A DNA stretch of 64,000 bases from an uncultured Acidimicrobiia bacterium (GTDB lineage Bacteria; Actinomycetota; Acidimicrobiia; Spongiisociales; Spongiisociaceae), in contig OY282370.1 of the NCBI GenBank assembly GCA_958295745.1, positions 744,001 to 808,000 of the forward strand. The letters run 5' to 3'. Shown piece by piece: positions 14,630 to 22,048 of the stretch. The stretch's first letter is position 1. Each line of letters starts with the position of its first letter. The position numbers were made by a program, and so were the translations under genes. Below the pieces are notes generated by a model. That model was not told the DNA's origin, searched no databases, and worked only from the letters and a program-made list of their open reading frames with translations.

Positions 14630-14878
14630 TCAGCGGCCGGTGCGTTCCCGGACGGAACGGCGGATGCGCTCCAAAACCTCCGGCGGAGCATCGACCCGCA
14701 CCCGCTCGCGAACGAAGCCCAAGAGCCGCTGTTCGAACTCGTAGGCCCGCTCACAGCCGCGGCACAAGCGCAGGTGCAGCCTGATCCGCACCCTGCGCAC
14801 CGCCCTCACCTCCCCGTCCAGATACGAGTAGATACGGGAAATGGCGCGCATGCACGAGTCCGAATGTCTGCGCATCAT
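14630..14878 (-). CDS. Anti-sigma factor, zinc-binding (RsrA-like)
   Basis: An 82-residue protein with cysteines and histidines arranged as in ZAS-type anti-sigma factors: HSDSC near the N-terminus, then HLRLCRGC (HxxxCxxC). Such proteins bind zinc and release their sigma factor when the thiols are oxidised. The ATG overlaps the sigma gene stop as ATGA, the usual coupling of a sigma factor with its inhibitor. The rest is a helical Arg-rich segment without a TM helix, so it is a soluble redox-sensing type (inference). Confidence 0.85.
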
Positions 14879-15453
14879 TTCCGATCTCCTGCGGCGCCCA
14901 GAAGTCCATGCTCCTCGGCTGCTTCCCACAACGCCTTCTGCAGAGCTTTTCTTCCGCGATGGAGACGGGACATCACGGTTCCGATCGGAATATCCAGCAT
15001 GGCCGCGATCTCCTTGTAGGAAAATCCTTGGAGATCGGCCAGCAGCACCGGCATCCGGTAGGGTTCGGGAAGGCTGTCGATGGCCCGGCGGACATCCTCC
15101 CCGCCCAGGGAGTCGAACACCTGGTCTTCCGCCGACCGCGCCGCCCGCCCGGCCTCGGCGGACGTGATCTTCCGGTACATGTACAGGTCCTCCACCTCGG
15201 CCAAATCGATCTCGCGCGGTCGGCGTTTCTGTTTCCTGTACCCGTTGATGAAAGTGTTGGTGAGGATGCGGTAGAGCCAGGCCCGCAGGTTGGTGCCCTC
15301 GGTGAACCGGTCATAGGCCCGGTATGCCTTGAGATAGGTCTCCTGGACCAGGTCTTCGGCATCCGCCGGATTCCTGGTCATGCGAAGGGCGGCCGAATAG
15401 AGCGGTGAGGCGTATACGAGAGCCTCCCGCTCGAAGTTCGCCCTGTCCGCCAT
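14875..15453 (-). CDS. ECF sigma factor, SigR/RpoE-like
   Basis: A 192-residue group 4 sigma factor. Region 2: [33 protein letters not shown] and [21 protein letters not shown]. Region 4: [47 protein letters not shown], matching the SigR group of actinobacteria that controls the disulfide-stress response. Its cognate anti-sigma follows immediately. A TATGAT box on the minus strand at 15480-15485, about 27 bp before the start, is a plausible -10 for a vegetative promoter. I see no convincing SigR autoregulated promoter (GGAAT-N18-GTT). Confidence 0.93.
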
Positions 15454-16365: not shown

Positions 16366-17874
16366 TCAGACGGCTACCGAGTTCATGGACCGGACCAGGA
16401 AAGCGGCCATCTGTCCCCGGGTCGCCGGAGCGGTCGGGCAGAACAACAACGGATCGACCGAGCATCCCCTGGTCACACCCGCCGCGTAGAGGAACTCCGC
16501 CGCCCGCACCGCGCCGTCGGGTTGGCGGGACATGTCCGCGAACGCGCCGTCGGCCGCCTCCACCTCCGACAGGTGGGAGAAAGCCGCCGTCAGCATCTGC
16601 GCCAGCTCCGCCCTGGTGACCGGGCCTTCCGGATCGAACCTTCCTTCCGGGGCGGACATCACGCCCGCCGCCACAGCCCACTGCGCCGGCCGCTCGTACC
16701 AGGCGCCCGCCGGGACATCTCCCAGAGCCGCCGCCCCTGACGGGGGTCCATACAGCCGACGCACCCCCTCGTGCAGGAACACGGCGGCCTGCGCCCGGGT
16801 CGCCGGGCGGTCCGGGCAGTAGCCGTTCAGGACGTCGCAGCCGGCGGCGGCCGCGTCCCAGGCCGCAAGGCTCTCGATGCTGGACTCGTGAATGTGGCCG
16901 TCGTCGTCACAGAACGGGCCGCGGTAGGACCCCTGCGCTATCCGCTGCATGACTTGGGGAAGCGGCCCCTCGACACCGCTCCGGCAGATATCGAACACTG
17001 CCAGCTTGCCGCCCCTCGAAGGGGCCAGGTCGAGAAGCTCCTCCGGTACGGGGCCGGAAAACCGATTGTCCCGTAGATACAGCCTCTCGAGGCTGGACAG
17101 GGACCCCAGCTCGGGCGGCAGACTCCCGCTCAACATGTTGCCCCTCATCCACAGCGTCACCAGACCGGTCAGGTTGCCCAGCTCGGCGGGGATCGGACCG
17201 GAGAGCCGGTTCCGGTCGAAATCGAGGTAGGTCAGCTTCGCCAACCGGCCCAGCTCCGGAGGGATGGGCCCGGTCAGCCGATTGTCGAACAACGCCATCC
17301 TCTCCATGTCGGCCAGGTTGCCCAGCTCGGCGGGGATCGGGCCGGAGAGGGAGTTGCTGTTGAGGTGCATCTGGTAGAGGCCGGTAAGGTTTCCCAACTC
17401 CGGAGGGATGGGCCCGGTCAGCCGGTTGTGGTTGAGGAACAGTTCCCTCAGAGCGGTCAGACGGGTGATCTCGACCGGGATGTCGCCGCCGATGTCCTGG
17501 AACTGGAGCGCCAGGGTCGTGACCCGGGCCCCCTCATCGGTAAGGCCGATGAAGACGCCGTTCCAGGAGAGGCCGATGCCCCAGGTGCGCAGGAAATGGT
17601 CGGCGGGCAGATCGGCGTTGGCCGGATGGGCCAGCCAGTAGTTCTTGATAGCCACCAGCGCCCGGCAGTCCGACGCCAGCCCCGGGTTGGTCCGCAGATC
17701 GAACCCGAAACTGCCGTCGGAACACCTTGCCGGATCGAGATCCGATCCGGTCTGGCCCTCCGCAGGGGAAGACAACCACACTGCCAGGGCGACCAGAGCC
17801 ACCACACACGTTGCCAGGGCATAAGGGAATCCGCCGCACGGAACCTCCCTCGTTCCCCTCCGAGGAGCTTGCAT
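16366..17874 (-). CDS. Secreted leucine-rich-repeat protein with SLH anchor domains
   Basis: A 502-residue surface protein. An N-terminal signal peptide (LATCVVALVALAVWLSSPAEG) is followed by an acidic Cys-containing cap, then six 24-residue plant-type LRRs of the form LTGLxxLxLxxNxLSGPIPxELGN (about residues 140-285), and a Cys-containing C-cap. Residues from about 340 on are three SLH-like segments (FDPEGPVTRAELAQMLTAAF and CPTAPATRGQMAAFLVRSM among them) that bind cell-wall polymers. The GxIP-type LRR is a protein-binding solenoid common in plants and scattered in bacteria. The ATG follows a TAGGGT -10-like box by 8 nt, so the mRNA may be leaderless. Confidence 0.88.
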   Translation of the reverse strand: MQAPRRGTREVPCGGFPYALATCVVALVALAVWLSSPAEGQTGSDLDPARCSDGSFGFDLRTNPGLASDCRALVAIKNYWLAHPANADLPADHFLRTWGIGLSWNGVFIGLTDEGARVTTLALQFQDIGGDIPVEITRLTALRELFLNHNRLTGPIPPELGNLTGLYQMHLNSNSLSGPIPAELGNLADMERMALFDNRLTGPIPPELGRLAKLTYLDFDRNRLSGPIPAELGNLTGLVTLWMRGNMLSGSLPPELGSLSSLERLYLRDNRFSGPVPEELLDLAPSRGGKLAVFDICRSGVEGPLPQVMQRIAQGSYRGPFCDDDGHIHESSIESLAAWDAAAAGCDVLNGYCPDRPATRAQAAVFLHEGVRRLYGPPSGAAALGDVPAGAWYERPAQWAVAAGVMSAPEGRFDPEGPVTRAELAQMLTAAFSHLSEVEAADGAFADMSRQPDGAVRAAEFLYAAGVTRGCSVDPLLFCPTAPATRGQMAAFLVRSMNSVAV

Positions 17875-18730: not shown

Positions 18731-19015
18731 CTATCGAATAGCCGCGGCCTCCGCCCCGGCGTGATAGGTGCGGACGATCTCGTCCAGCGCCTCTGGGTCG
18801 AACCCGACCACCCGGCGGCCGCCGTAGATCAGGAAGGGAACCATGAGGTCACCGGTGAGCGCCAGCAGCTCGTCGCGGGCCTCGGTGCTCTGGCGGATGT
18901 TGCGGTCGTCGAACTCGACGGAATGCGCCTCCAGGTAGTCACGCACCCGGCAGCATTCCTGTCAGGTGGGCGTGCGGGCCTCGGTGTTCAGGCTGTATAG
19001 CAGGGGTATTTCCAT
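18731..19015 (-). CDS. Glutaredoxin-like selenoprotein (in-frame UGA = Sec18)
   Basis: Read through one in-frame TGA at 18962-18964, this is a 94-residue thioredoxin-fold protein: MEIPLLYSLNTEARTPT-U-QECCRVRDYLEAHSVEF, then the cis-Pro strand TGDLMVPFLIYGGRRVVGF and helix DPEALDEIV. The UGA falls exactly where glutaredoxins have the first Cys of CxxC, giving UxxC. The ATG has a perfect AGGAGGT seven bases upstream, which makes no sense for a 17-codon peptide. A hairpin of SECIS type begins 4 nt after the UGA. Without recoding only a GTG-started 71-residue fragment lacking the active site remains. Decoding requires selA, selB, selC and selD elsewhere in the genome. A sequencing error or dead gene is the alternative. 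Confidence 0.82.
18921..18958 (-). promoter_or_regulatory. SECIS-like hairpin after the UGA
   Basis: mRNA positions 4-41 after the UGA: GAAUGC pairs with GCAUUC; a bulged U; GCC with GGC; a GGA bulge on the 3' side; GGGU with ACCU; apical loop GCGUGACU starting 18 nt after the UGA with G first. Position, bulged U and loop G fit the bacterial SECIS rules. Confidence 0.72.
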
Positions 19016-19023
19016 CGTCTTCA

Positions 19024-19072
19024 CCTCCTGTTCCGCCCGGGGGGCGCCGCCGGAACAGGAGGCGCCCCCCGG
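19024..19072 (-). promoter_or_regulatory. Interleaved inverted repeats covering the selenoprotein ribosome site
   Basis: On the mRNA four segments occur in order: 1 CCGGGGGGCGCC, 2 CCTCCTGTTCC, 3 GGCGCCCCCCGG, 4 GGAACAGGAGG. Segment 1 pairs perfectly with 3 (12 bp) and 2 with 4 (11 bp), so together they form an H-type pseudoknot or two alternative hairpins. Segment 4 contains the AGGAGG ribosome site of the selenoprotein, so the 2-4 pairing would block translation. Confidence 0.75.
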
Positions 19073-19148: not shown

Positions 19149-19991
19149 CTAATTGCAGGCCGGAAGACCCTCGGTGGGGCCGATCCACTCGGTGTAGAGC
19201 TCGTCGAGCCTGCCGTTGGAGATGTAGTACGACAGCCAACCGTTCAGGTATTCCAGCCAGACCACCTCGCCCCTGGGAAGGGCCCAGGCGCCGTATTCCT
19301 GCGAGAACGGGGCGTCCGGGTTGAGGATGCTGGTACCGGGGTTCTCCCTGACGAACGGGATGGCCAGATACTCCTCGACCACGATGGCGTCGGCCCGGCC
19401 TGACGCCACCTCCAAAAAGGCGGGCGCCTGATCCAGCTCAACCAACTGGGCGTTGGGGAACCGGGTGGCGGTGAGGTTGGCGGCCGTGGACCCGATCAGG
19501 GCGGTCATGGTTACATCGCCGCTGTCCAGCTGATCCAGGGAGGTTATCCCCGCTCCGTCGTTGGTCACCACCACTTGGCGGTAGGGCACGTAAGGGCAGG
19601 TGAACCAGAGCTGCTCGAGCCGGGGCGGCCGACCTACCAGGCCCACCGAGACCAAATCGAACTGGTCGGCGAGGAGCCCGGGGATGAGGGCCGGGAACTC
19701 CAGGTCCTGAATTACGAGCTCCACTCCCAGGTCCTCGGCGAGCATCCGCATCAGATCCACGTCGTAACCGGCCGGATTGCCGTTCGCATCACGGAACATC
19801 TGCGGCTCGAACTGCAGGGTCATGCCAACGACCAGCGTTCCCCGGTCCTTGATGGCGTCGAGCAGGTTGCCCTCCACCACCGGCCGCGCCGCCGGCGCCT
19901 CCGATGTGTCATCAGAAGCACACGCGGATGCGACCAACCCCACAACCAACAACAAACCGGCCCATCTGGCTCGCTTCGCCCTTCTCATCAT
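19149..19991 (-). CDS. Amino-acid ABC transporter, substrate-binding lipoprotein
   Basis: A 280-residue family 3 solute-binding protein. The N-terminus MMRRAKRARWAGLLLVVGLV ends in the lipobox VASAC, so it is a lipid-anchored protein outside the membrane. Then come DRGTLVVGMTLQFEPQMF, NPAGYDVDLMRMLAEDLGVEL, FDLVSVGLVGRPPRLEQLWF and ADAIVVEEYLAIPF, the pattern of polar amino-acid receptors. A very strong AAGGAGG lies 8 nt before the start. It follows the permease and ATPase genes by 114 bp, and precedes the selenoprotein. The exact amino acid cannot be read from the sequence. Confidence 0.93.
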   Translation of the reverse strand: MMRRAKRARWAGLLLVVGLVASACASDDTSEAPAARPVVEGNLLDAIKDRGTLVVGMTLQFEPQMFRDANGNPAGYDVDLMRMLAEDLGVELVIQDLEFPALIPGLLADQFDLVSVGLVGRPPRLEQLWFTCPYVPYRQVVVTNDGAGITSLDQLDSGDVTMTALIGSTAANLTATRFPNAQLVELDQAPAFLEVASGRADAIVVEEYLAIPFVRENPGTSILNPDAPFSQEYGAWALPRGEVVWLEYLNGWLSYYISNGRLDELYTEWIGPTEGLPACN

Positions 19992-20105: not shown

Positions 20106-20900
20106 TCAGACGGAGGGCCCGGACGGAGCGGAACCGCCGCCGGAGAGCGATTCCTGGAGCCTGCGCAGGCGGGCGGCCTTACGGCGGGCGAAGGGCGAGC
20201 GCGTCTTGGAAACGAGGAGGTCAACGAGCGCGAAACGGCGTTCGATGTACTTCACGAGGAAGTACACCCCGGTGGTGAGGATGAGGTAGACCAGCACCGT
20301 GGCCATATAGACCTCGAAATAGCGGAATGTGCGGTTGGCGAGAACGTAGCTGACCCGAAGCAGCTCCTCCACGCCGATCAGGTAAACGAGAGACGAATCC
20401 TTGATCATGCCTATGAACATGTTCCCCGTGGGGGGAATGACTATCCGGGCCGCCTGGGGAAGGGTCACCCTGAAGAAGGCCTGCGCCCGGCCCATACCCA
20501 CCGATAGGGCAGCCTGTCTCTGCCCGTCGGGGACGGCCTGGATGCCGCTGCGGAAGATCTCGCCCAGCCAGGCCGAATACTGGACGGTCAGCGTGAGGAT
20601 GCCCGCCTGGATGGCGGTGATGGTCAGGTTGAACTGGATGGCGATCCCGTAGTACACGAAGAGAACGAACACCAGGAGGGGTATGGCTCGGAACAGGTTG
20701 ATGTACGCCGCCACTATCGGGCCGATGATCGGGGAGGGCGACATGCGCAGCAGGGCGACCACCAGACCGAGCACCGCGGCCAGCACGAAGGAGACCAGCG
20801 AGATCACCAGGGTCCATTTCACTCCGCCCACGAAGATGTGCCGGTTGTCCCAGATGAACTCGGGGCGGAACACGGCCTGGGCGAGGGCCATCGCCGTCAT
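20106..20900 (-). CDS. Amino-acid ABC transporter, permease
   Basis: A 264-residue inner-membrane permease of the His/Glu/Gln/Arg/opine type, with about five TM helices and the cytoplasmic coupling motif QAAARIV-like segment [27 protein letters not shown], which contacts the ATPase. Its N-terminus [34 protein letters not shown] is the usual first helix pair. The ATG overlaps the ATPase stop as ATGA. Only one permease gene is present, so the transporter is probably a homodimer in the membrane. Confidence 0.94.
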
Positions 20901-21685
20901 AGGATCGCATCCAAGAAAGCCTGGGTGCGGGGCTCTCTGGCATGGCTGTAGATCTCGCGTCCGCCCTGCTCGACGATGACCCCCTCGTCCATGAAGATGT
21001 TGACATCGCCCGCCTCTCGGGCGAACCCCATCTCGTGGGTCACCACGACCATGGTCATTCCGGACTCGGCCAGGGTTCGCATCACTCCGAGAACCTCTCC
21101 CACCAGCTCGGGATCGAGGGCCGAGGTGGGCTCGTCGAACATCATGATCTTGGGTTCCATCACCAAGGACCGGGCGATGGCCACCCGTTGCTGCTGGCCG
21201 CCCGACAGCTGCGACGGGTAGGCGCCGATCTTGTCGAGCAGGCCCACCTGATCCAGATACGAGGCGGCCTCGAGCTCCGCCTCGGCCCGCTTGGCGCCCT
21301 TCACGCGGCGCAGCGCCAGAGCGACGTTTTCCAGCGCCGTGATGTGGGGAAACAGGTTGAACTGCTGGAAGACCATCCCGACCTGTTGGCGGAGATCCCG
21401 CGGTTTACCGCGGGGCGGATCCTCCCCGCCCGCGCCCGGAATGCCCGGTCCGTACTCCTTGCCGTCGAACCAGACGGATCCGGAGTCGGGCTGTTCCAGC
21501 AGGTTGGCGGTGCGGAGCAACGTCGATTTGCCCGATCCGGAAGGTCCGAAGATCACCACATGCTGGCCCTGCCCCACGGAGAGATCGATGCCCCGCAGGA
21601 CGTGATTGGTTCCGAACGACTTGTGGATGCCGCGGAGCCTCAGCACGAGATCCCCGTTGCCGGGGGCGGCGGCGGCCGCCGTCAT
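20897..21685 (-). CDS. Amino-acid ABC transporter, ATP-binding subunit
   Basis: A 262-residue ATPase: Walker [14 protein letters not shown]-loop [19 protein letters not shown], signature [18 protein letters not shown], Walker [17 protein letters not shown] and the switch His in [10 protein letters not shown]. This is the GlnQ/HisP class. Between Walker A and the Q-loop there is a Gly/Pro-rich insertion ([18 protein letters not shown]), longer than usual but at a variable loop. It overlaps both neighbours by 4 bp. Confidence 0.95.
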
Positions 21686-21948
21686 GAGTCGAAGAGGGTG
21701 GGCCGGGAGGAGAACTCATGGCCGTGGCGGACCAGGAGGTAGACGATGGCGTCCTCGGCGAAACGGAGCCCGTCGTGCATCCCATTTCTGAAGGGGCTGT
21801 CCCCCTTGGCGGCGTTGTAGTCCAGCTCCTGCCTGATCCGGACGAGCAGGTTGCCCAAGCCGTCCACCAGGGTTTCGCCGGGTTCGACCACCCGGGCGCC
21901 CTGGTCGTCGTCGAGCGAGTTAGCGGGCGGGCGGGTTATTCGTTCCAT
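21682..21948 (-). CDS. Hypothetical protein, first gene of the transporter operon
   Basis: An 88-residue soluble protein starting [11 protein letters not shown]; its stop overlaps the ATPase start (ATGA), which supports it being translated. The middle [46 protein letters not shown] looks like a two-helix protein. I do not recognise a family. It could be a small regulator or an accessory to the transporter; nothing in the sequence decides. Confidence 0.65.
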
Positions 21949-22048
21949 TCTGCCCGTCGGTGCGCAGTGAGGAGCGCTGTTCGCGAGGGATTCCATTCCA
22001 TTACGAGTCCGATGTTACATCCGTTGCATCCGGGCGGCGGCGCCTCGC

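Follow-up and report, generated by a model that had tools for sequence, protein, structure and literature searches.

A predicted selenocysteine glutaredoxin and its small partner protein beside an amino-acid ABC importer in an Acidimicrobiia bacterium

The region 18731–19015 on the minus strand of the window (the whole 64,000-nucleotide stretch of DNA analysed here) very probably encodes a selenoprotein glutaredoxin (Sec-Grx), and decoding of its in-frame UGA as selenocysteine (Sec) is near-certain from the comparative evidence. Judged by its occurrence across genomes, a small protein encoded in the same cluster is a new and obligate companion of Sec-Grx and belongs to no known family. The two may be part of an undescribed Actinomycetota redox module, in which a Sec glutaredoxin is functional only together with a two-helix partner of its own and was recruited to an amino-acid importer to reduce incoming disulfides, a tentative reading that we hold with more doubt than confidence. 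The Sec-Grx subfamily, the obligate partner and the fusion of the two are new, while Sec-containing glutaredoxins as such were already known. A preceding sequence-only reading of this DNA had recognised the selenoprotein gene, which stands, and had missed the obligate partner gene, its fusion to Sec-Grx and the neighbouring ABC importer.

The gene layout given by that reading was confirmed at 19029–18731. A Shine-Dalgarno sequence AGGAGGT (19023–19029, minus strand) is followed by an ATG (19015–19013), 17 codons, a TGA (18964–18962), 76 codons in the same frame and a TAG (18733–18731). With the UGA read through, the product has 94 residues and the active site T-P-T-U18-Q-E-C21-C22, in which the TGA occupies the place of the first Cys of a CxxC motif and gives UxxC. 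This replacement had been proposed earlier, and is borne out by the match to the Pfam Glutaredoxin family and by the homologue alignment. The proposal that the codons in the same frame continue a glutaredoxin fold also agrees with the score of the product against PF00462 (43.2 bits, cut-off 22.9) and with its AlphaFold2 model, which has a mean pLDDT of 88 and the strand and helix order of the thioredoxin type. When this model was searched with Foldseek, the best solved matches were glutaredoxins and NrdH. The protein is predicted to have the thioredoxin fold, the C/UxxC motif and the VP motif in which the cis-Pro of glutaredoxins lies.

At this locus the table 11 ORF list contains only a 71-residue ORF starting from GTG (18946–18731), exactly the fragment without the active site that gene callers had been expected to yield, so members of the subfamily are easily missed by standard gene calling. 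The GTG is kept in 11 of 20 homologues and missing in the other 9. Upstream of the UGA, the 13 codons from 5 to 17 vary among the 20 homologues in 5 columns at the first position, 2 at the second and 12 at the third. Because almost only third positions vary, these codons are evidently translated in the Sec-Grx frame.

Close relatives of Sec-Grx were found in 13 of 99 related genomes, the window's own genome counted among the 13, and on 16 contigs labelled Acidimicrobiia or "bacterium", some of which carry the same sequences. Two genomes from another order of the same phylum (G364 and G756) also have one, and the viral contigs searched gave none. The alignment and the tree cover 20 distinct sequences, and G756 was looked at separately. 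All 20 aligned sequences have TGA at the Sec codon (18962–18964 in the window, minus strand), and so does G756, giving 21 distinct close homologues, none of which has a Cys codon (TGC or TGT) at this position. A search for homologues with Cys or Sec at this site had been proposed, and homologues in which the stop is real had been named as a way to overturn the selenoprotein reading; the UGA is kept in all 21, and the codons before it are constrained as protein. As every member found retains the UGA, Sec seems difficult to replace in this protein. In the tree, the 20 sequences group in a single clade with 99/94 support, distinct from the Cys glutaredoxins of the phylum. Past the UGA, codons 33–36 and 39 are identical in 20/20 sequences and codon 40 in 19/20, and the constraint at synonymous sites therefore reaches about 70 nt beyond the UGA, which may reflect a constraint at the RNA level. 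In genome G350, a YruB-type glutaredoxin (L059) also has TGA at the equivalent site (UPYC); it is a Sec member outside the Sec-Grx clade.

The UGA is followed by a candidate bacterial SECIS hairpin (18916–18964, minus strand), which folds from the UGA with –23.8 kcal/mol (z –3.1). It has an upper stem of 7 bp and a 6-nt apical loop CGUGAC (18938–18943) that starts 18 nt past the UGA, with G then U at loop positions 2–3, and an unpaired U lies in the internal loop. The published bSECIS rules ask for a loop of 3–9 nt, a stem of 4–16 bp, a G in the first two loop bases, a distance of 16–37 nt from the UGA and a minimum free energy of –7.5 or lower (PMC13188914), and the hairpin satisfies all of them. 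The same rules were passed by 250 of the 1334 TGAs in the window (19%), and are non-specific at its G+C content. Because of this high rate the hairpin says little by itself, and the case is decided by the retention of the UGA across homologues. By minimum-energy fold, 11 of 20 Sec-Grx members pass the rules. Synonymous-codon shuffles equalled the energy of the window hairpin in 1% of cases; for eight other members the value was at most 2% in six, and 8% and 12%, not significant, in two. Pair counting found one pair changed on both sides and no covariation above shuffles (not significant), and RNAalifold on the family gave a weak consensus different from the window hairpin; the hairpin is therefore not claimed as proved. 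The earlier suggestion of a SECIS with a bulged U and a loop 18 nt past the UGA was right as to fit, whereas the fit has little specificity and covariation does not back it.

Two overlapping and mutually exclusive inverted repeats were observed at 19024–19072, between the genes of the substrate-binding protein described below and Sec-Grx. Pairing within the perfect 12-bp repeat (19024–19035/19051–19062) would take up the AGGAGG ribosome site, and the 14/15-bp repeat (19037–19051/19058–19072) would free it. From their sequence, these repeats could be a translational switch or a mere terminator. Scans for sigma-70 promoters and terminators found nothing, and Rfam found only a tRNA in the window.

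The genome of the window, a draft of 3.31 Mb (97% complete), contains the Sec decoding machinery. selA (424 bits) and selB (about 332–333 bits) are adjacent and over cut-off. Rfam (78.9 bits) and ARAGORN agree on a tRNA-Sec, the latter with anticodon TCA, while selD (384 bits; L015 / L098, G000:C1:842510-843433) is itself a selenoprotein gene with an in-frame TGA in FSPGGGUACK. Independently of Sec-Grx, these four predicted genes argue for an organism in which UGA is decoded as Sec. The earlier claim of a selenocysteine system is thereby upheld, and selB and tRNA-Sec, the absence of which would have told against it, are both present. Of the 13 carriers among the 99 relatives, 12 were found to have selB; none was seen in the remaining genome, the draft G013. 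Because 83 of the 99 relatives have selB, its presence hardly discriminates the carriers. In the literature on selenoproteins of Acidimicrobiia or sponge symbionts, nothing relevant was found.

Two other readings of the UGA were weighed. That it is a true stop or a sequencing error, and the gene a pseudogene or a 71-residue fragment from the GTG at 18946, agrees with standard ORF calling, which yields that ORF alone. However, the 21 distinct homologues stem from different assemblies and share the TGA, the GTG is lacking in 9 of 20, the codons upstream of the UGA are under protein-level constraint and the Sec machinery is intact, which makes this reading extremely improbable. Alternatively, a variant code or general read-through could place some residue other than Sec at the UGA. 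Nothing specific speaks for this, and it is very improbable, since TGA is the ordinary stop of the adjoining small ORF and of the ATPase gene and UGA is therefore not generally sense in this genome; the Sec machinery and the position of the UGA at the catalytic first Cys of a glutaredoxin also argue against it. In the preferred reading, SelB with Sec-tRNA-Sec would read UGA 18964–18962 as Sec through the hairpin just downstream.

The first gene of the cluster is a 104-residue ORF at 21682–21996 (minus strand, conserved part from about 21948), which encodes the small partner protein. It has about 85 residues in its conserved form, carries the motif PPGNSL... and has no conserved Cys. Searches against Pfam, NCBIfam, PADLOC and the PDB gave no trustworthy match. 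The partner ORF was present in every Sec-Grx carrier locus inspected, G756 included. Among the 99 related genomes, the partner and Sec-Grx occur in exactly the same 13, with one copy each. Under independence, identical sets would arise by chance with a probability of about 2e-16, a value that takes no account of shared ancestry. Across the phylum, a sample of 396 genomes showed the partner only in the window's genome and G364. The partner is fused in frame behind Sec-Grx in five loci (L043, L044, L046, L047 and L050), and the stop of Sec-Grx overlaps the start of the partner in L045, L048 and L049. A model of the fusion, of modest confidence (pLDDT 76, pTM 0.46), shows the partner domain as a hairpin of two helices behind a low-confidence linker. 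Neighbouring genes of the fused loci, such as cobyric acid synthase (by inspection), are common to the members of the fused group only. Four genomes of the window genome's family (G001, G002, G005 and G006) were observed in which neither Sec-Grx nor the partner was found, and selB is present in three of these. Apparently the two genes come and go as a unit. Strict pairing and fusion make the small protein a clear and testable partner for Sec-Grx. Through it, one could approach what a selenoprotein glutaredoxin does physiologically in bacteria that are known mostly from assembled metagenomes.

A polar-amino-acid ABC importer adjoins Sec-Grx and the partner in most carrier loci. In the window it consists of an ATPase (20897–21685), a permease (20106–20900) and a substrate-binding protein of the SBP_bac_3 family (19149–19991; PF00497, 92 bits), all on the minus strand, and the ATPase start overlaps the partner stop (ATGA). 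The best NCBIfam models were TcyN for the ATPase and a cystine permease for the permease, and models for Lys/Arg/Orn and for cystine scored nearly equally on the binding protein, all below cut-off. The equivalog cut-offs of the cystine importer were missed by all three proteins (binding protein 68.5 versus 312 bits, permease 152 versus 300, ATPase 287 versus 406). Most carrier loci have the order Sec-Grx, partner, ATPase, permease and substrate-binding protein, which is permuted in the window to partner, ATPase, permease, substrate-binding protein and Sec-Grx. As the importer still adjoins the pair in the permuted order, the linkage persists through rearrangement. No such importer is adjacent in the fused loci or in G364 and G756; the core unit is therefore Sec-Grx with its partner, the importer being a frequent addition, and import is not an obligatory part. 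About 3.3 kb beyond Sec-Grx, an ECF sigma factor and anti-sigma factor pair was observed (14630–15453), close to SigH and RsrA of thiol stress control and below cut-off (234.8 versus 251.55 and 49.6 versus 62.5 bits). The ORF at 16366–17874 encodes leucine-rich repeats with apparent S-layer-type repeats near the C-terminus (by inspection), and gave weak matches only, below cut-off.

As in dithiol glutaredoxins, Sec18 would attack a disulfide and Cys21 would resolve the selenenylsulfide. Sec-Grx and the partner would physically associate. The importer would bring in cystine or a similar disulfide, which Sec-Grx and the partner would reduce; on gene order and model scores such a role is possible, with the balance on the doubtful side. 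The substrate part of this explanation, and only this part, competes with a reading that has an even chance of being right, in which Sec-Grx has no tie to import: it would reduce a cellular enzyme in the manner of NrdH or mycoredoxin, or bind thiophilic metals or peroxides, and the importer linkage would be secondary. The loci in which Sec-Grx and partner lack an adjacent importer agree with it, as do the NrdH structures close by fold and an MshC homologue in the genome (279 bits, below the cut-off of 485), which hints at a mycothiol-type thiol; mycothiol is a possible reductant of Sec-Grx. Against this stands the importer linkage in most carrier loci and in two gene orders. The partner might instead be a regulator or a protein client of Sec-Grx outside a transport-linked pathway, which agrees with strict co-occurrence and fusion. 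With no conserved Cys, the partner is more likely to have a structural or ligand role than to be a disulfide substrate, and no direct evidence opposes this reading, which we consider conceivable and somewhat improbable.

For the proposed disulfide-uptake role, a putative glutaredoxin in the Bacillus cystine operon (ytnI) plays no part in the argument. The cystine ABC importers FliY-YecSC (PMC4383340) and TcyN are the best models of the permease and ATPase of the window, which remain below the equivalog cut-offs.

The closest PDB sequences to Sec-Grx are 7c10 and 7c12 (cGrx1; E 1e-10 and 4e-9), which we take to be the selenoprotein glutaredoxin of Clostridium (Alkaliphilus) oremlandii. cGrx1 is not known to have a partner protein. 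cGrx1 and Sec-Grx are both UxxC glutaredoxins in which Sec opens the active-site motif, but they share only about 30% identity and come from different phyla, and Sec-Grx alone has a further Cys at position 22 and the motif LNTDARTPT near its N-terminus. For the selenoprotein glutaredoxin of C. oremlandii, PMC9312934 cites Kim 2011.

Selenoprotein glutaredoxins of the UxxC type are well established (PMC13188914, PMC1088965, PMC1794560), and the sequence-only reading had noted that glutaredoxin-like selenoproteins exist in several bacteria. Sec-Grx scored below every NCBIfam cut-off scored and, on its sequence, is a separate subfamily. Its best NCBIfam model is the YruB-type TIGR02196 (54.4 bits, cut-off 88.55), with which it has the VP and GFD motifs in common, yet its clade is separate from the YruB-type proteins, the UPYC member included, with the same 99/94 support. 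The NrdH model TIGR02194 gave 29.6 bits (cut-off 85.75). The UXX-star families NF041212, NF041211, NF041114 and NF047338 are likewise small glutaredoxin-like selenoproteins; Sec-Grx was below cut-off for all four and, unlike them, has a resolving Cys. The Sao selenoproteins SaoB, SaoP and SaoT include a thioredoxin-like UxxC protein, SaoT, listed with ABC transporter subunits (PMC13188914). The window locus resembles the Sao system in having a UxxC redoxin together with ABC transporter subunits. In contrast, the redoxin, permease and binding protein of the window locus had no Sao model among their matches, and the transporter genes of this locus, unlike those of Sao, are without in-frame UGA.
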